A stretch of 50,867 nt of DNA from Acidimicrobiia bacterium (lineage in GTDB: Bacteria; Actinomycetota; Acidimicrobiia; Spongiisociales; Spongiisociaceae), in NCBI GenBank assembly GCA_009841075.1, contig VXMP01000069.1, positions 1 to 50,867 on the forward strand, read 5' to 3'. This document shows positions 22,428 through 29,527 of the stretch, piece by piece. A program made the translations under genes and the position numbers. Numbering within the stretch: position 1 is the first letter of the stretch; every line of letters starts with the position of its first letter. Below the pieces are notes generated by a model, which was not told the DNA's origin, searched no databases, and saw nothing but the letters and a program-made list of their open reading frames with translations.

Positions 22428-23129
22428 ATGACTGAAGACGAACTGGACCTTCGAACCCTTCCCGACTCCGAACTCGTTGAGCAGATGCACGACGACCTCT
22501 ATGACGGTTTAGCCGACGAAATCGACGAAGGAACCCGAATCCTTCTGGAACGAGGATGGGGGGCGTCCGAGGTACTCAACGACGCTCTGGTCGAGGGGAT
22601 GCGCATAGTGGGTATCGACTTCCGGGACGGCATACTCTTTGTCCCGGAGGTGTTGTTGGCGGCCAACGCCATGAAGGCGGGTATGGCCGTACTAAGGCCT
22701 CTGCTGGCGGAGACCGGTGCGGAAACGGTCGGAACGGTGGTTATCGGAACCGTCAAGGGTGACATCCACGACATAGGCAAGAATCTGGTCGCCATGATGA
22801 TGGAAGGGGCCGGATTCGAGGTCATCGATTTGGGGATCAACACCGATGTGGAGGAGTTCCTGGAAGCCATAGACACCCATCAGCCCGACATTCTGGGGAT
22901 GTCGGCCCTGCTCACCACCACCATGCCCTATATGAAAGTGGTAGTGGACACCCTGATCGAGCGGGAGATGCGGGAGGATTACATCGTCATGGTGGGTGGT
23001 GCCCCTCTCAACGAGGAGTTCGGTAAGGCGGTGGGTGCCGACGCCTACTGTCGGGACGCCGCGGTAGCCGCCGAGACCGCCAAGGACCTGGTGGCCAAGA
23101 AGCGGATCCTGATGAGCGAACAGGTCTAG
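22428..23129 (+). CDS. Methyltransferase corrinoid protein (MtgC/MttC-like)
   Basis: 233 aa cobalamin carrier for a methyltransferase system. The B12-binding motif D112-I-H114-D-I-G117 supplies the histidine lower ligand; MSALLTTTMPYMK and VGGAPLNEEFGKAVGADAY are the other cobalamin contacts. The N-terminal cap domain is present. The first ~40 residues are unusually acidic (about 14 Asp/Glu against 2 Arg). It would shuttle the methyl group between the MttB-family enzyme (27132-28673) and the pterin enzyme (24166-25071). First gene of a long operon. Confidence 0.94.
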   Translation: MTEDELDLRTLPDSELVEQMHDDLYDGLADEIDEGTRILLERGWGASEVLNDALVEGMRIVGIDFRDGILFVPEVLLAANAMKAGMAVLRPLLAETGAETVGTVVIGTVKGDIHDIGKNLVAMMMEGAGFEVIDLGINTDVEEFLEAIDTHQPDILGMSALLTTTMPYMKVVVDTLIEREMREDYIVMVGGAPLNEEFGKAVGADAYCRDAAVAAETAKDLVAKKRILMSEQV

Positions 23130-23130
23130 C

Positions 23131-23772
23131 TTGTCCGCTCGGCCGGCCCCAAACCCCACCCCGATATCCCCGCCTCGGCTGCTTATATTGGCCTGCGGGG
23201 CGCTCGCCAACGAGATCAAGCATCTCATCAGGCTTAACGACTGGGATCATGTGACGATGGAATGCCTACCCGCCCGATACCACAACACTCCCGACCGGAT
23301 CGTGCCCGAATTGAAGGCCCGCCTGGAAGAAGAGGCGTCTTTATACGACCGCATTTTTATCGGCTATGCCGACTGCGGCACCGGAGGGCAACTCGACTCA
23401 CTGCTCAAAGAATGGGAGAACGTGGAGCGTCTCCCCGGGGCCCACTGTTACGAGTTCTACGCCACCTCGCCGGTTTTTCACCAACTTCACGAACGGGAGA
23501 TCGGAACCTTCTATCTGACCGACTTTCTGGCCAGGCATTTCGACCGACTGGTCTGGCAGTCCCTAGGCCTGGATCGTTACCCGCAGCTTCGGGAACTCTA
23601 CTTCGGGAACTATCGCAAGCTGGTCTACCTGGCGCAGTTCGACGACCCGACGACCGCTCGTATGGCAGAGGAGGCTGCTCAACGACTGGGGCTCGAATAC
23701 CAATATCTGCCGGTCGGTCTCGGCCATCTGGAGACCGGCCTGGTGACATTCGTGCAACCGGCCGGCGTTTGA
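23131..23772 (+). CDS. DUF1638 family protein
   Basis: 213 aa, TTG start 1 nt after the corrinoid gene stop. Family segments LACGALANEI, LPARYHNTPDRI, YADCGTGGQLD and GAHCYEF include four cysteines (22, 45, 82, 106) that could bind a metal or cluster. DUF1638 genes recur beside corrinoid methyltransferases; no biochemical function is established to my knowledge. Its place between the corrinoid protein and the methyltransferases suggests a role in corrinoid loading, reduction or substrate handling, which is inference. Confidence 0.85.
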   Translation: MSARPAPNPTPISPPRLLILACGALANEIKHLIRLNDWDHVTMECLPARYHNTPDRIVPELKARLEEEASLYDRIFIGYADCGTGGQLDSLLKEWENVERLPGAHCYEFYATSPVFHQLHEREIGTFYLTDFLARHFDRLVWQSLGLDRYPQLRELYFGNYRKLVYLAQFDDPTTARMAEEAAQRLGLEYQYLPVGLGHLETGLVTFVQPAGV

Positions 23773-23809
23773 TGTACACCGGAGGCGGGCACATCAAGGG
23801 AGCCCGGCT

Positions 23810-24169
23810 ATGACCTCCCGTCAGGGCCGATCCCGTAACCGGAGGTCCCGTTCGGAGCTGGTAGTCATCTACTGGCGGGATATCCCGGCCCAGGTCACCG
23901 CTCGGTTCGGCGAAGAGAAGATGGCGGTGACGCTGCATCGGCGGTTTCAGGCCGCCATCGACCGGGCGGCGATGGTGGCCGGTAAGAAAACCTACGACGA
24001 ATACATCTCCGAATGGCGGAGAACCTCCCGGCCCTGTCAAGGTAACGTAGAAGAAGAAGCCCGCCGGGCCGCCGCCCGCCTCGAACAGGAATATCCGAGC
24101 GACCGGGTACGGGCTATCGCCTCCAACGGCGGCTTCGAGGAATCGGCGTCCGAAGAAGGTACCTCATGA
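23810..24169 (+). CDS. PF13769-like ('virulence factor') small protein
   Basis: 119 aa. The body (LVVIYWRDIPAQVTARFG, then HRRFQAAIDRAAMVAG and YISEWRR) resembles the family labelled Virulence_fact, a name with little bearing here. The first 14 residues are Arg-rich (R at 4, 7, 9, 11, 12, 14). It overlaps the next gene by 4 nt, so it is translationally coupled to the pterin methyltransferase and probably works with it. Function unknown. Confidence 0.75.
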   Translation: MTSRQGRSRNRRSRSELVVIYWRDIPAQVTARFGEEKMAVTLHRRFQAAIDRAAMVAGKKTYDEYISEWRRTSRPCQGNVEEEARRAAARLEQEYPSDRVRAIASNGGFEESASEEGTS

Positions 24170-25071
24170 TCCGAACCGTGGTCAGCTCACCGACCCGCTC
24201 GGTCACCATCGGCCCTGATCTGCCGTTTGTGGTGATCGGAGAGCGGATCAACCCGACCGGACGCAAGCTCCTCGCCGAGGAGATGAGAAACGGAGACTTC
24301 AGTCGGGTAGAGGCCGACGCCTTGGCCCAGGTAGCCGCCGGAGCGCAGATGCTGGACGTTAACGCCGGTATCCCACTCACCGACGAACCGGCCCTGCTTG
24401 CCGAAGCCGTCCGGCTGGTCCAGTCTTTGGTGGAGGTCCCCCTTTCGATCGACTCCTCAATAGTCAAGGCACTGGAAGCCGGATTGTCGGTTTACCAGGG
24501 AAAGGCCTTGGTCAACTCGGTAACCGGGGAAGAGGAACGGCTGGAACAGGTTCTCCCTTTGGTGGCCGAACACGGGGCTGCTGTCGTGGCCATCTCCAAC
24601 GACGAGACCGGCATCTCCGAGGATCCGGAAGTCCGTTTCCGGGTGGCGGCCAAGATCGTGGAGCGGGCTGAGAGTTACGGTATACCGCCCGAGGATGTGG
24701 TGGTGGATCCCCTGGTTATGCCGGTGGGTGCCCTTCGTTATGCCGGCCGACAGGTGTTTGATATCCTGACCCGCCTCCGCCAGGAGCTGGGGGTTAACTC
24801 CACCTGTGGGGCCTCCAACATCAGCTTCGGGCTGCCCAACCGGTCCGGCATCAACAGCTCCTTTTTGACCATGGCTATCGCCAGTGGTCTGACCTCGGCG
24901 ATTACCAACCCTTTAGAGCCCGAGGTGGTACAGGCGGTCAAGTCGGCGGACGTGTTGATGGGAAACGACCCGGACTGCACCCGCTGGATACGTACCTACC
25001 GGCAGCCCACCGCCGGGGGTCGAACCCGATCGGGCCGGCGGGGCGGACGCCGGCGGTCCGTACCCTCCTAG
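24166..25071 (+). CDS. Methyl-THF:corrinoid methyltransferase (MtgA-like, pterin-binding)
   Basis: 301 aa of the dihydropteroate-synthase-like barrel also found in MetH and AcsE. FVVIGERINPTGRKL, MLDVNAGIP, SIDSSIVKALEAGL, VVDPLVMPVG and GASNISFGLPNR are family marks for pterin binding. It would move the methyl group from the methylated corrinoid protein to THF, or the reverse. The last ~16 residues form an Arg/Gly-rich tail (R-T-R-S-G-R-R-G-G-R-R-R from 286). Located between the PF13769-like gene (4-nt overlap) and the activating protein. Confidence 0.92.
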   Translation: MIRTVVSSPTRSVTIGPDLPFVVIGERINPTGRKLLAEEMRNGDFSRVEADALAQVAAGAQMLDVNAGIPLTDEPALLAEAVRLVQSLVEVPLSIDSSIVKALEAGLSVYQGKALVNSVTGEEERLEQVLPLVAEHGAAVVAISNDETGISEDPEVRFRVAAKIVERAESYGIPPEDVVVDPLVMPVGALRYAGRQVFDILTRLRQELGVNSTCGASNISFGLPNRSGINSSFLTMAIASGLTSAITNPLEPEVVQAVKSADVLMGNDPDCTRWIRTYRQPTAGGRTRSGRRGGRRRSVPS

Positions 25072-25080
25072 GTCGAGGCC

Positions 25081-27135
25081 TTGACCACCCCATCCGTCAA
25101 AGTGGTGTTCACCCCATCCGGCCGGCGGGGACAGTTCAAATCGGGTACCACCGTCCTGGAAGCGGCCCGCGGCCTAGGGGTTGACCTTGACTCGGTATGC
25201 GGCGGTCGGGGAATCTGCGGACGCTGCCAGATCACCCTGGGTAGCTCCGCCACCGAGGGCATCGGATCGGAGGGAGAGCGCCTGTCCCCTCCCGGCGAGA
25301 CAGAAACCGGCTATCGCTCCCGCCGCCGCCCTCTTCGGGATGGCCACCGACTGGGTTGCGCCGCCCGACTCCAAGACAACGCGGTCATCAACGTTCCTCC
25401 CTACAGCCAGGTGCGCCGTCAGGTGGTACGGAAACGGGCCGAGGTGGTGGATATTGCGGTCGATCCGGTGGTTCGCCTCTATTACCTGGAGGTAGAGCCG
25501 GCGGATATGGATCGGCAGGCCTCCGATCTGGTCCGGGTTCTGGAGGCTTTGCAGGAACAGTGGGGCGTGTCCGGTGTGTCGGTCGATCATCAGGTGCTGG
25601 TCGGGCTCCAGTCCGCCCTGAGGGAAGGGAAATGGGCGGTGACCGTAGCCGTTCACGACCAGGCGGCCATTACCGGGGTCTGGCCCGGCTTCCATGACGG
25701 ACCTCTCGGCATTGCCTTCGATGTCGGGTCCACCACCGTGGCCGGACATCTCTGCGATCTTTCCAACGGTAAGGTGCTGGCCTCTTCGGGGAGGATGAAT
25801 CCGCAGATCCGTTTCGGTGAGGACCTGATGAGCCGGGTGTCGTATGTGATGATGAACGAAGGCGGCCAGGCCGAGCTAACCAAGGCGATCCGGTCGACCA
25901 TCGACGAAATGATAGGCGACCTGGTCGAACAGGTGGGCCGTACCCGGGAGGAGGTTCTGGAGCTGGCCCTGGTCGGCAACCCGATCATGCACCATCTGGT
26001 GCTCGGGATCGACCCCACCAATCTGGGGGTGGCACCGTTTGCCCTGGCCACGGACGAGTCGGTGCGTCTGCCCGTCTCGAGGATCGGCATCGAAGCCCAC
26101 CCGGGTGCCCGACTATATGTTCTGCCATGCGTGGCCGGACACGTCGGTGCGGATGCGGCCGGTGCCATCCTGTCCGAGGGGCCTCATCGGGGCCGGGCAA
26201 TCCAGCTGCTGATCGATGTGGGTACCAATGCCGAGATCGTCTTGGGCAGCAATGGACGCTTGTTGGCCGCTTCAAGTCCCACCGGCCCGGCTTTCGAGGG
26301 GGCCGAGATCAGCTCCGGCCAACGGGCTGCTCCGGGAGCCATCGAGCGGGTGCGGATCGATCGGAAGACCCTCGAACCCAGGTTCAAGGTGATCGGGTCG
26401 GACCTCTGGTCGGACCAGGAAGGTTTCGATGCCGCGGTGGAGGAAACCGGGGTGATCGGTATCTGCGGGTCGGGCATAATCGAGGCGGTGGCCGAGTTGG
26501 CCCTGACCGGGGTGGTTTCCAAAGAGGGTCGCATATCGGATAACGGACGCAGTCGGCGGGTCACCACTTCCGGCCGATCGGCCGCCTACCTTCTCTATCA
26601 GGATCCGACCAATCCGCAGAATCGGATCAACGTCACCCAAAACGACATTCGAGCTATCCAGCTGGCCAAGGCGGCGTTATACGCCGGGGTTAGGCTGCTG
26701 ATGGACTGCCTGGAGGTGGAAGAAGTGGACGAAATCCGGTTGGCCGGGGCTTTCGGCAGCCACATCGACCCTACCTACGCCATGGTGCTGGGGATGATCC
26801 CCGACTGCGCGATAGATCGGGTTTCGGCGGCGGGTAATGCGGCCGGTACGGGAGCGATGATGGCTTTGCTGAGCGGGGCGGCCCGCACCGAGATAGAAGC
26901 CTTGGTCAACGACATAGAGAAGATCGAAACCGCGGTGGCACCCGCCTTTCAGCAGCATTTTGTCGAGGCGATGGGCATTCCTCATGGCCGCGCCGACCAC
27001 CCTAACCTGGCCCGTGAGGTGGATCTTTCCGGGATCGTTTCGGCGGGTACGGTCGGTGGAGAACGGCGGCGAAGCCGCCGCCGGACAGTTGTGTCATCGG
27101 GCCGGGTTGACCAGGGAAAGGAGTCGGGGCCATGA
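25081..27135 (+). CDS. Corrinoid-activating protein: 2Fe-2S ferredoxin plus ASKHA ATPase domain (RamA/RACE-like)
   Basis: 684 aa, TTG start. The N-terminal ferredoxin domain has Cys40, Cys46, Cys49 and Cys93 in the plant-type pattern C-x5-C-x2-C...C. A middle domain leads to an ASKHA ATPase region (AFDVGSTTVAGHLCDL; LLIDVGTNAEIVL; ICGSGIIEAVAEL; AGAFGSHIDP), the DUF4445 type. Such proteins use ATP to reduce Co(II) corrinoid back to Co(I) after accidental oxidation. A basic cluster R662-664, R666-668 stands near the C-terminus. The end overlaps the MttB-like gene (ATGA). Confidence 0.92.
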   Translation: MTTPSVKVVFTPSGRRGQFKSGTTVLEAARGLGVDLDSVCGGRGICGRCQITLGSSATEGIGSEGERLSPPGETETGYRSRRRPLRDGHRLGCAARLQDNAVINVPPYSQVRRQVVRKRAEVVDIAVDPVVRLYYLEVEPADMDRQASDLVRVLEALQEQWGVSGVSVDHQVLVGLQSALREGKWAVTVAVHDQAAITGVWPGFHDGPLGIAFDVGSTTVAGHLCDLSNGKVLASSGRMNPQIRFGEDLMSRVSYVMMNEGGQAELTKAIRSTIDEMIGDLVEQVGRTREEVLELALVGNPIMHHLVLGIDPTNLGVAPFALATDESVRLPVSRIGIEAHPGARLYVLPCVAGHVGADAAGAILSEGPHRGRAIQLLIDVGTNAEIVLGSNGRLLAASSPTGPAFEGAEISSGQRAAPGAIERVRIDRKTLEPRFKVIGSDLWSDQEGFDAAVEETGVIGICGSGIIEAVAELALTGVVSKEGRISDNGRSRRVTTSGRSAAYLLYQDPTNPQNRINVTQNDIRAIQLAKAALYAGVRLLMDCLEVEEVDEIRLAGAFGSHIDPTYAMVLGMIPDCAIDRVSAAGNAAGTGAMMALLSGAARTEIEALVNDIEKIETAVAPAFQQHFVEAMGIPHGRADHPNLAREVDLSGIVSAGTVGGERRRSRRRTVVSSGRVDQGKESGP

Positions 27136-28673
27136 GTACTCGAAGGGGAAGAAGAGGAGGTGGCCGAGGTGCCCGTCGCGCCGAACGCCTCGCCCGGGTA
27201 ATCGAACAGCAGCCCTTCCTGACCCGCCGGCTGGATCAGAACCAGGTTCTTTCCGCAGAAGGTATGGAGATCATCGAGCACAACGCCGACACCCTGTTGG
27301 AGCAGGTTGGTATAGAGGTGGTGGATTTCCCGGAGGCCCTGGCCATATTTTCTGATGGTGGTGCCGAGGTGGACGGTACCCGGGTTCGTTTCCCCCGCGG
27401 GATGTGTCGGGAGATAATCTCCCGCCGAGCCCCGTCCTCTTTTGTGCAGCACGCCCGTAACCCGCAGCGCTCGGTGACCATCGGCGATCCCCATACCGTG
27501 TTCGCCCCCGCCTACGGGTCTCCGTTTGTCCGTGACCGTGACGAAGGGCGTCGCTACGCCACCATCGAAGACTTCCGGAACTTCACCAAGCTGACCTATA
27601 TGAGTCCGGCCCTGCACCACGGCGGGGGAACCCTGTGCGAGCCGGTGGATTTGCCGATCGAAACCAGGCACCTCGACATGATCTACAGCCACGTGGTTCT
27701 GCACGACAAGCCCTTCATGTCGTCGGTTACCCGTCCGGAACGAGCCCAGGATTCGGTGGACCTGGCCAAGGTGGTCTTCGGCGAGCAGTTTGTGGCGGAT
27801 AACACGGTGCTGATCGGGCTGTGTAACGCCAACTCGCCCATGCAGTGGGACCGGGCCATGCTGGGTTCGGCCCAGGTGCTGGCCGAAAACAACCAATGCG
27901 TCCTTATCACCCCGTTCATCATCGTCGGGGCCATGTCGCCGGTGACCGTGGCGGCAACCGCCACCCAGACCCTGGCGGAGGCGATGGCCGCTATGTCGTT
28001 CACCCAGCTGGTGCGCCCCGGTGCTCCGGTGATTATGGGTTCGTTCGCCACCACCATGTCGATGCAGACCGGCGCACCCACTTTCGGAACCCCGGAAGCG
28101 GCTCTGGCGCTTTTGGCCATCCGCCGTCTGGCCGCCCGGCTGGGCGTTCCCTTCCGTTCCGGCGGCAACCTGACCGCCTCCAAGATTCCGGATGCCCAGG
28201 CGGCCTACGAGAGTTTCATGACCTTTCTTCCCGCCTTGAGCGCCGGGGTCAACTTCGTGCTCCACTCGGCCGGATGGCTGGAAGGCGGCCTGACCATGAG
28301 CTACGAAAAGTTTGTCCTGGACGCCGACCAGATCTCGATGATGGCCCGCCTGGTGGGTGGGGTGGACCTGAGCGAAAACGGGCTGGCCCTGGACGCCCTG
28401 CTCTCCAACGAGCCCGGACAGCACTTCCTGGGTGCCGAACATACCCTGACCAATTTCGAGTCAGCCTTTTGGGTGTCCGATTTGGGAGACAACAGCAGTT
28501 TTGAGCAGTGGGAATTGGACGGTGCCCTCACCTCCGTCGACCGGGCCCACGCCGAGTGGAACCGGCTGTTATCCGATTATGAGGCACCGCCGATCGACGA
28601 TGCGGTCCGAGCAGAACTTGAGGATTGGATCATGGCCCGCAAAGCCACCCTACTTCCCGACTCGCCGGCCTAA
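27132..28673 (+). CDS. MttB-family methylamine:corrinoid methyltransferase, non-pyrrolysine
   Basis: 513 aa. The protein is read through without an internal amber codon, so it belongs to the non-pyrrolysine group (MtgB-like) known to demethylate quaternary amines such as glycine betaine, proline betaine or carnitine rather than trimethylamine. Family blocks include GVPFRSGGNLTASKIPDAQAA split across the barrel, PAYGSPFVRD, TVLIGLCNANSPMQWD and GSFATTMSMQTGAPTFGTPE. Residues 4-16 are an Arg/Gly-rich leader (RRGRRGGGRGARR). Methyl acceptor is presumably the corrinoid protein at 22428. The DMGDH-like gene nearby favours glycine betaine as substrate; this is inference. Confidence 0.9.
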   Translation: MSTRRGRRGGGRGARRAERLARVIEQQPFLTRRLDQNQVLSAEGMEIIEHNADTLLEQVGIEVVDFPEALAIFSDGGAEVDGTRVRFPRGMCREIISRRAPSSFVQHARNPQRSVTIGDPHTVFAPAYGSPFVRDRDEGRRYATIEDFRNFTKLTYMSPALHHGGGTLCEPVDLPIETRHLDMIYSHVVLHDKPFMSSVTRPERAQDSVDLAKVVFGEQFVADNTVLIGLCNANSPMQWDRAMLGSAQVLAENNQCVLITPFIIVGAMSPVTVAATATQTLAEAMAAMSFTQLVRPGAPVIMGSFATTMSMQTGAPTFGTPEAALALLAIRRLAARLGVPFRSGGNLTASKIPDAQAAYESFMTFLPALSAGVNFVLHSAGWLEGGLTMSYEKFVLDADQISMMARLVGGVDLSENGLALDALLSNEPGQHFLGAEHTLTNFESAFWVSDLGDNSSFEQWELDGALTSVDRAHAEWNRLLSDYEAPPIDDAVRAELEDWIMARKATLLPDSPA

Positions 28674-28684
28674 AGGGAGTCGGG

Positions 28685-29527
28685 GTGGTAGATCTCAGCC
28701 CGGAGGCCCGCCGACGGATCCGCCGCATCCTGGAGGAACCCAAGTTCGAGCTGCTTCCTCTCGGCAATGTGCTGGAACAGTGCCGCTATCTTCCGTCGGG
28801 GGCGCAGGTGTCGATAACCGCCTCTCCCACCAGGACGTTGGAACACACCCTCGACGTGGCCGCCGATCTGGCTATGTGGGGTTTTGAGGTGGTCCCTCAC
28901 CTGTCCGCCCGCATGACCAAAGATCTGACCCATTTGGCGGCCCTGCTGAAGCGGATCGAGGATCTCAACATCTCCCGGGTGTTCGTAGTGGGAGGCGACG
29001 CTCCTCAGCAGGGAGATTTCCCGGACGGTTTCTCACTTATTTCGGGGCTGGAAAAAATCGGCCATGACCTGGAGGAGATCGGCATCCCCTGCTACCCGGA
29101 CGGGCACAGCGTCATCCCCGACGACCGACTCTGGCAGGCTCTTTACGACAAGCAGCCCCACGCCCGATACATGACCACCCAGATGTGTTTCGACGGCGAG
29201 CTGATCGCCGACTTTCTGGTCCACTCTCGTGCCAAGGGGGTCGACCTGCCGGTTCGGTTCGGCATCCCCGGCGTGGCGGATCGACTCAAGCTGGCCCGGA
29301 TTTCCACCCGAATCGGGGTGGGGCAGTCGGTCCGTTTCCTCACCAAACATCGAGGCCTGGTCAGCCGGTTTGTCAGGCCGGGTGGCTTCGCACCCGATGA
29401 GCTGCTGGAGGACCTGATTCCCAGGTTGGACGGGCCCGAAAGCGACGTTAAGGGGGTGCACATCTACACCTTCAACCAGTGCGACACCACCGAGCGTTGG
29501 AGACAAGAGTACCTGGCCGTTCTCTGA
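28685..29527 (+). CDS. metF: Methylenetetrahydrofolate reductase family protein
   Basis: 280 aa TIM barrel flavoprotein. The start is set at GTG 28685 because AAAGGGAG (28673-28679) precedes it; the frame is open further up into the MttB-like gene. Typical parts are the first strand (FELLPL), HLSARMTKDLTHL, VFVVGGDAPQ, and the late VHIYTFNQCDTT. In this operon it would oxidise methyl-THF produced by the pterin methyltransferase to methylene-THF, opposite to its usual anabolic direction; direction is inference. Symbol is given at family level. Confidence 0.85.
   Translation: MVDLSPEARRRIRRILEEPKFELLPLGNVLEQCRYLPSGAQVSITASPTRTLEHTLDVAADLAMWGFEVVPHLSARMTKDLTHLAALLKRIEDLNISRVFVVGGDAPQQGDFPDGFSLISGLEKIGHDLEEIGIPCYPDGHSVIPDDRLWQALYDKQPHARYMTTQMCFDGELIADFLVHSRAKGVDLPVRFGIPGVADRLKLARISTRIGVGQSVRFLTKHRGLVSRFVRPGGFAPDELLEDLIPRLDGPESDVKGVHIYTFNQCDTTERWRQEYLAVL

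Follow-up and report, generated by a model that had tools for sequence, protein, structure and literature searches.

Arginine-rich tails on the enzymes that share an acidic corrinoid protein in an Acidimicrobiia operon: candidate electrostatic docking tags

How can several methyltransferases and a reactivase share a single corrinoid protein? This question is raised by a corrinoid methyltransferase operon in a stretch of 50,867 nucleotides from an Acidimicrobiia bacterium (GCA_009841075.1, contig VXMP01000069.1). The stretch, hereafter the window, corresponds to one complete contig (G000:C76); the assembly measures 2.30 Mb and is 95.9% complete. Its MttB-superfamily methyltransferase, its MtgD/MtvH-like methyltransferase and its RamA/AcsV-like activase each carry a short arginine (Arg)-rich tail, and the N-terminus of its MtgC-like corrinoid protein is acidic. 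The tails are conserved among homologues and co-occur with the acidic end of MtgC. Judging from these sequences, the tails probably, though by no means surely, act as electrostatic docking tags for the one shared corrinoid hub. Direct contact between tail and acidic N-terminus would be the simplest account, and the role may be a kinetic one.

The elements concerned are the following.

22428..23129, plus strand: MtgC-like corrinoid protein of 233 amino acids, the putative shared hub (PF02607 at residues 17-89, PF02310 at 103-211).
22428..22550, plus strand: acidic N-terminus of MtgC, the proposed socket, made up of a loose extension (residues 1-12) and the acidic first cap helices (13-41); delimited by charge to position 40 in the alignment and by the AlphaFold2 (AF2) model.
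24166..25071, plus strand: MtgD/MtvH-like methyl-tetrahydrofolate:corrinoid methyltransferase (PF00809; NF005719 at 357.7 bits, cut-off 259).
25021..25056, plus strand: Arg-rich C-terminal tail of MtgD, residues 286-297, from the sequence and its homologues.
25081..27135, plus strand: RamA/AcsV-like reductive activase with a TTG start (PF17650, PF17651, PF14574; NF040756 at 378.8 bits, cut-off 800).
27064..27084, plus strand: Arg-rich C-terminal tail of RamA, residues 662-668, from the sequence, its homologues and the tree.
27132..28673, plus strand: MttB-superfamily (non-pyrrolysine) methyltransferase, MtgB-like (PF06253 at 691 bits; frame open, no internal stop).
27141..27179, plus strand: Arg/Gly-rich N-terminal tail of MttB, residues 4-16, of low confidence, with a short helix at 12-21; from the sequence and the AF2 model.

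A preliminary description of this DNA had placed basic tails on four products of the operon, and all four were read at those residues: RQGRSRNRRSR in the PF13769 protein (residues 4-14), RTRSGRRGGRRR in MtgD/MtvH (286-297), RRRSRRR in the RamA-like protein (662-668) and RRGRRGGGRGARR in the MttB-like enzyme (4-16). The second MttB paralogue of the genome (L086, G000:C89:17090-18610), which is 28% identical, has an Arg-rich N-end too, MARRKRGGGRAARIAARQRG. The chance background was taken from 261 heuristic gene calls of this genome, covering 334 kb of the 2.30 Mb and including the window. With the criterion of a net charge of at least +7 in a 15-residue stretch within the last 35 residues, only 4 of the 261 C-ends were found, namely RamA, MtgD, a 610-residue and a 149-residue protein. 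The MttB N-end also reaches +7, a level met by 2 of the 261 N-ends. The tails of these three enzymes, whose charge the preliminary description had proposed to compare with the background, thus stand out from it. Arg-rich C-ends are commoner in GC-rich stretches (high guanine-plus-cytosine content), and a single tail is therefore weak evidence; the case rests on conservation.

Homologues were drawn from the order (59 genomes), the phylum (246), the class of a Rhizobium, the Alphaproteobacteria (190), and named plasmid records; these genome sets are samples, with stretches taken from part of the matches. A fixed statistic was used for C-tails, a net charge of at least +4 in at least one 15-residue stretch of the final 35 residues. 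Operons were labelled tailed or untailed after inspection, and the labels coincide with the RamA clade on a tree of core columns only (85 rows; the re-fetched duplicates L031 and L089-L092 omitted). On this tree a single clade of 59 rows, spanning the window's phylum and the Alphaproteobacteria, was tailed throughout (58 rows by threshold, L135 by eye). Among the 26 rows outside it, 25 were below the threshold, and the flagged one, L120, ends in core sequence. RamA C-ends reached at least +4 in 58 of 60 tailed operons versus 1 of 26 untailed ones, and at least +5 in 53/60 versus 0/26. The corresponding figures for MtgD were 57/58 versus 3/11, and 52/58 versus 1/11.

The N-ends of MttB followed the type of MtgC. 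All 73 MttBs assigned to an acidic MtgC were tailed, whereas none of the 12 that go with a plain MtgC were. For 65 of the 73, an acidic MtgC was either seen or aligned in the genome, and for eight the assignment was by operon type. In this table the acidic end itself was not seen for L052, L053, L063, L064, L071, L099, L109 and L139, and L193, scored as untailed by a script that had cut its N-end, was reset to tailed on visual inspection. Duplicates and rows failing the coverage or start filters were dropped, among which L034, L085 and L097 look tailed. The starts of L039, L043, L046, L088, L126 and L209 are the nearest upstream starts, those of L039 and L046 being set by homology. Of 40 further MttB N-ends, 35 came from genomes with an observed acidic MtgC and without a known second operon, and 34 of these were Arg-rich by eye. 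The other five had no Arg-rich cluster: L277 (G106, beside an untailed RamA), L288 and L289 (G101), and L290 and L291 (G162).

Both types of operon can occur in one genome. G162 holds L094, with tailed MttB, MtgD and RamA and an acidic MtgC, and L128, with none of these; G183 holds L109, with a tailed MttB and a tailed RamA fragment, and the untailed operon L125. MttB, MtgD and RamA are tailed and the MtgC end is acidic in Sinorhizobium meliloti pSymB strain Ak57 and in Paracoccus aminovorans. In the betaproteobacterium Azoarcus sp. KH32C, MtgD and RamA are tailed and the MtgC end is acidic, with no MttB in the stretch. Across the homologues the sequence of the tails drifts and their charge is kept. 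Basic tails and the acidic MtgC end thus occur together with few exceptions, as the preliminary description had expected, and the outcome that it named as refuting, tails absent or scattered at random among close homologues, was not the one obtained.

Several side observations concern these genes. In two single alphaproteobacterial genomes the MttB family has many members: G338 has 15 matches, about 11 of them near full length, and G390 has nine; the N-ends read (ten and nine, respectively) were all Arg-rich by eye. In L129 (Rhizobium sp. RCAM05350, G301), the coding sequences of RamA, MtgD and MttB are each divided among several frames, which indicates broken genes or sequence errors. The plasmid of Halomicrococcus gelatinilyticus (L296) carries a haloarchaeal cluster of a corrinoid protein, a RamA-like protein, DUF1638 and an MtrH-like protein; it has no Arg-rich tail of the present kind, and the MtrH C-end contains a short GERRRPS.

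The MtgC of the window has an isoelectric point of 4.18 and a net charge of -8 over residues 1-25. The preliminary description had given it about 40 acidic residues at the start. The first 40 residues are indeed acidic, but an extension is formed by about the first 12 only; residues 17-89 are the ordinary B12-binding_2 cap. In the AF2 model (predicted local distance difference test score, pLDDT, 89.9), residues 1-10 (mean 74) are mostly coil, and helices occupy residues 13-25 and 29-41. MtgCs were compared in an alignment (A1) of 47 of 50 candidates, L050, L051 and L069 being omitted as near copies, in which the B12-binding motif G111, D112 and H114-N119 is invariant. The net charge to window position 40 was -11 to -21 in 38/38 tailed-type MtgCs and -3 to -5 in 9/9 untailed ones, one of which (L063) is the second MtgC of a genome with a tailed operon. 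Over the body (41-233) the charges overlap (-2 to -16 in the tailed type, -6 to -17 in the untailed), and the difference is therefore located in the N-terminus. Acidic positions specific to the tailed type are 3-5, 7, 13, 26, 30 and 31; positions 56, 64, 67, 149, 174, 196 and 216 of the body are likewise type-specific. In nine genomes (G494-G502; eight Acidimicrobiales/Acidimicrobiaceae and one Microthrix), MttB is tailed with no operon in the same stretch, and an acidic-type MtgC, 74-82% identical and aligned from residue 2-3, lies elsewhere in the genome. Alignments with the corrinoid structures 1y80, 7xcn, 4jgi and 3ezx begin only at MtgC residue 18-23 and so do not cover the acidic extension; MtaC (2i2x) aligns with MtgC from residue 4 by phmmer.

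Under the docking proposal, MttB/MtgB would move a methyl group from a quaternary amine to the MtgC cobalamin, MtgD would hand it on to tetrahydrofolate, MTHFR would oxidise it further, and RamA would re-reduce oxidised cobalamin. The acidic N-terminus and the first cap helices of MtgC would be engaged by the Arg-rich tails that MttB, MtgD and RamA carry here and that MtgE carries in other genomes. Such docking would raise the local concentration of partners, allow fast exchange, and perhaps assist in lifting the helical cap from the corrinoid. Unrelated folds, mainly those that must meet the corrinoid protein, bear like charge at one end or the other, a distribution that fits a docking code. 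The preliminary description had called it unlikely that the tails were inherited from the folds; this needs correction for MttB, in which position 1 of the PF06253 model aligns at residue 8, placing the tail region within the family model. The AF2 model of MttB has a pLDDT of 92.2, with residues 1-10 below 50 and the helix at 12-21 short and of low confidence. With a single polyacidic hub opposite several polybasic partners, the charged ends might instead drive partner-partner assembly, up to a whole-pathway condensate; in line with this, Arg prevails over Lys in the tails of most lower-GC genomes that were read. However, each tail is short and the acidic part of MtgC is mostly folded in its AF2 model, and we regard such an assembly as very unlikely.

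If the tails mediate docking on MtgC, a tail is to be expected on MtgE, the homocysteine subunit, as well. A search with PF02574 gave 30 loci, of which ten were MetH-like (L153-L156 and L158-L163) and two, L157 and L164, were of other types. MtgEs bearing the ADGxxGT motif numbered 17, one of them running off its contig, and 15 of the 16 complete ones end Arg-rich. Of the 17 MtgE genomes, 15 showed the acidic MtgC end; for G400 and G469 the stretch did not cover it. At the level of sequence, the prediction held for the complete stand-alone MtgEs, a further enzyme that docks on MtgC, in agreement with the earlier claim that the docking partners carry the tails. In tailed operons, C-ends of at least +5 were found in 0/40 DUF1638 proteins, 0/43 PF13769 proteins, 2/40 MTHFRs, 0/46 MttBs and 0/44 MtgCs.

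These counts also bear on other ligands. RNA-binding proteins typically have short ends rich in Arg and Gly, and the tails may bind another polyanion (RNA, polyphosphate or membrane lipid) and so place the pathway in the cell, the acidic end of MtgC being a separate matter. The fuzzy sequences of the tails and the very low model confidence of the MttB tail are in line with this. But it leaves unexplained both the co-occurrence of the acidic MtgC N-terminus with the tails and their restriction to MtgC-docking enzymes, 38 of the 40 MTHFRs of the same operons being untailed. We consider it unlikely.

A by-product of GC-rich DNA, of overlapping genes or of ribosome-binding sites could be suspected from the high GC content and tight gene spacing of the window, and from the frequency of Arg-rich C-ends among heuristic gene calls of GC-rich stretches. 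However, the tails persist in loci of 33-50% GC. In G366, a genome of 33% GC, 3 of 109 sampled genes reached at least +7, and these were MtgE, RamA and MtgD (the operon stretch was included on purpose); the MtgD tail there has eight Arg and no Lys. MtgE genes outside the operon are tailed, the RamA of S. meliloti (L293) is tailed despite a gap of 54 bases after the gene, and the untailed operon L128 lies in the same GC-rich genome as a tailed one. The explanation is almost certainly wrong, and a GC or ribosome-binding-site artefact was rejected because tails occur at 33% GC and in unlinked MtgE and an untailed operon occurs in a GC-rich genome.

The tails and the acidic end could also be lineage baggage, fixed once and spread by descent or gene transfer with little or no present function. 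The tailed RamAs form one clade, and the MttB tree shows few changes. In eleven close operons the C-tails evolve faster than the cores, with ratios of non-synonymous to synonymous differences (pN/pS) of 0.46-0.54 versus 0.13-0.19, values that are rough with synonymous differences near saturation. On the other hand, no loss was seen in 59/59 RamAs of the clade across two phyla, Arg is kept at 33% GC, and in MttB tail and core are under equal constraint (pN/pS 0.18 versus 0.17, with the same near-saturation of synonymous sites). An inheritance without function appears decidedly unlikely to us.

Several results weigh against a docking function. The association is broad across genomes, but few independent events underlie it: the tailed RamAs make up one clade, and tail state changes just two or three times on the MttB tree. 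This limits the statistics, and the set may have descended as one package. Many independent gains of tails were rejected as a description, the one tailed RamA clade and the two or three MttB contrasts being too few for a sign test. The same heuristic applied to GC-richer material (the G162 sample) gave C-ends of at least +7 in 6 of 95 genes, and around operons in 32/463 and 11/239, tails and spurious frames included. DUF1638 is implicated in corrinoid reactivation too (PMC5764234) and is untailed. For MtgE, the negative control is limited to how rarely such ends turn up among the gene sets sampled. The MtgE L171 (G011) lacks an Arg cluster; its scattered Arg residues reach +4, and it was counted as untailed. 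In G365, the PF02574 protein L182 has neither the ADGxxGT motif nor a tail, and the MttB paralogue L292, the exception among the 35 N-ends above, is untailed. In G007, MttB is tailed, and the MtgC detected there is just 50% identical. G302, titled Acidiferrobacteraceae, a gammaproteobacterial family, has an acidic MtgC and a tailed MttB, and its only RamA match is untailed. Either the gene is missing from the assembly or RamA can work without a tail. In G302 (L048, L092/L130), a metagenome-assembled genome, this untailed RamA is 34% identical and has a weak PF13769-like match adjoining.

With these points considered, charge-based docking is still the best reading of the tails, as the preliminary description had proposed, with the PF13769 protein removed from the set. 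Many homologues of that protein have no basic N-end and start M-AELTVI or M-NLTTIYW, and the basic end is not conserved beyond this family of genomes; its membership was rejected for this lack of conservation. A wider reading is tentative, and in its full breadth we would lean slightly against it: in aerobic bacteria of at least two phyla, an acidic MtgC would be the socket for fuzzy Arg-rich plugs on unrelated folds, a charge code that would serve up to about 11 demethylases together with MtgD, MtgE and RamA, take the place of the covalent MetH linkers and prevent mixing with any untailed corrinoid systems that the cell also has.

The tails bear on how many methyltransferases and a reactivase share a single corrinoid protein, and they make this sharing directly testable by deletion and charge-swap. 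They may provide a sequence marker for the MttB-family enzymes that use a shared hub, and they suggest a portable wiring of enzyme to carrier. If docking is correct, a tail together with PF06253 would predict the MttB enzymes that feed an acidic MtgC hub. The mtgC of such a system is highly expressed across the ocean according to the abstract of PMC12478193, and this MtgC may be of the acidic type, to judge from the S. meliloti member.

The gene order of the operon on the plus strand is MtgC-like corrinoid protein, DUF1638, PF13769, MtgD/MtvH-like, RamA/AcsV-like, MttB-superfamily and MTHFR, and a relative with the same operon is the Acidimicrobiia metagenome-assembled genome L031. The remaining genes are the following.

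23131..23772, plus strand: DUF1638 protein with a TTG start and no tail (PF07796).
23810..24169, plus strand: PF13769 protein (PF13769 at residues 21-103), with a basic N-end at nucleotides 23819-23851 that is not conserved.
28625..29527, plus strand: MTHFR-like protein without a tail, an internal negative control (PF02219).

The minus strand immediately upstream encodes a DAO/GCV_T oxidoreductase and two electron transfer flavoprotein subunits, neighbours that would fit the oxidation of dimethylglycine-like products. The corrinoid protein has the helical cap and the Rossmann B12 domain (PF02607 and PF02310 above cut-off), the pterin-binding methyltransferase MtgD is a separate protein, the PF06253 methyltransferase is without pyrrolysine, and both a RamA-like activase with RACo domains and DUF1638 are in the operon. 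These parts identify the operon as a split corrinoid methyltransferase of the MtgBCD type, and glycine betaine is probably the substrate of its MttB/MtgB. The NCBIfam models of MtgC remained below their curated cut-offs (NF047995, 166.2 of 310 bits; NF047996, 207.5 of 370 bits), as did the pyrrolysine MttB model TIGR02369 (261.5 of 525 bits). The activase was below the cut-offs of both AcsV (NF040756, listed above) and RamA (TIGR04270, 100.5 of 500 bits) and, by these sequence scores, is related to but distinct from AcsV/RamA. A PF02574 match for MtgE and the MetH reactivation domain PF02965 were both sought in this 95.9%-complete genome and neither was found.

The PF13769 protein is annotated as a 'virulence factor'. 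In Terrarubrum flagellatum (NZ_CP091854.1, L297 7707-9989) it is fused to RamA as one annotated coding sequence, and in L106 (6034-8076) it lies in one open frame with DUF1638. It is therefore probably an accessory of corrinoid reactivation, and its name is probably misleading.

The enzyme system as such is known. The MtgBCD system was described in Ruegeria in 2025 (PMC12478193), a paper that also names the S. meliloti cluster, which was tailed when read here. At the level of the parts list, the window matches the MtgBCDE of Ruegeria pomeroyi (PMC12478193) and, in Phaeobacter inhibens, the split methionine synthase (PMC5764234): corrinoid MtgC, pterin MtgD, PF06253 MtgB, a RamA-like DUF4445 protein, DUF1638 and a MetF-like protein are common to them, and there too one corrinoid hub serves several enzymes. 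In contrast to these systems, the window has a single operon that includes PF13769, and no MtgE was found in its genome. In the main text of PMC12478193, the words 'tail', 'arginine' and 'N-terminal' each occur 0 times; in the available parts of PMC5764234 and PMC12366255, 'tail' and 'arginine', respectively, occur 0 times. In the literature searched on arginine-rich or disordered tails in corrinoid methyltransferases, which left subscription journals mostly uncovered, the 10 papers listed of 22 were unrelated except for the known MttB-MttC structure paper, and within this scope no mention of the tails was found.

Detectable homology to the hub and the methyltransferase extends to the MtgB/MtgC-like proteins of anaerobes and the MttB/MttC of methanogens (2qne, 9yce, 7xcn, 4jgi), with 2qne and 9yce aligning from MttB residue 34-37 only and thus not covering the tail. 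An N-terminal addition that aids docking is present in the corrinoid protein of the MtaB/MtaC methanol system (2i2x): an N-terminal domain of MtaC sits in a groove formed between MtaB subunits, and docking is accompanied by displacement of the cap (PMC9842639). The MtaC addition is a folded, groove-fitting domain, whereas the window MtgC has a short acidic stretch set against short basic tails. The closest solved MttB is PDB 4yyc, a putative trimethylamine methyltransferase (E 1.9e-184, aligned from residue 5), the sequence of which includes an R/G-rich N-end. In classical MetH, modules of the same kinds act on one corrinoid and are covalently joined by linkers, whereas their counterparts in the window are separate proteins that share one corrinoid protein.

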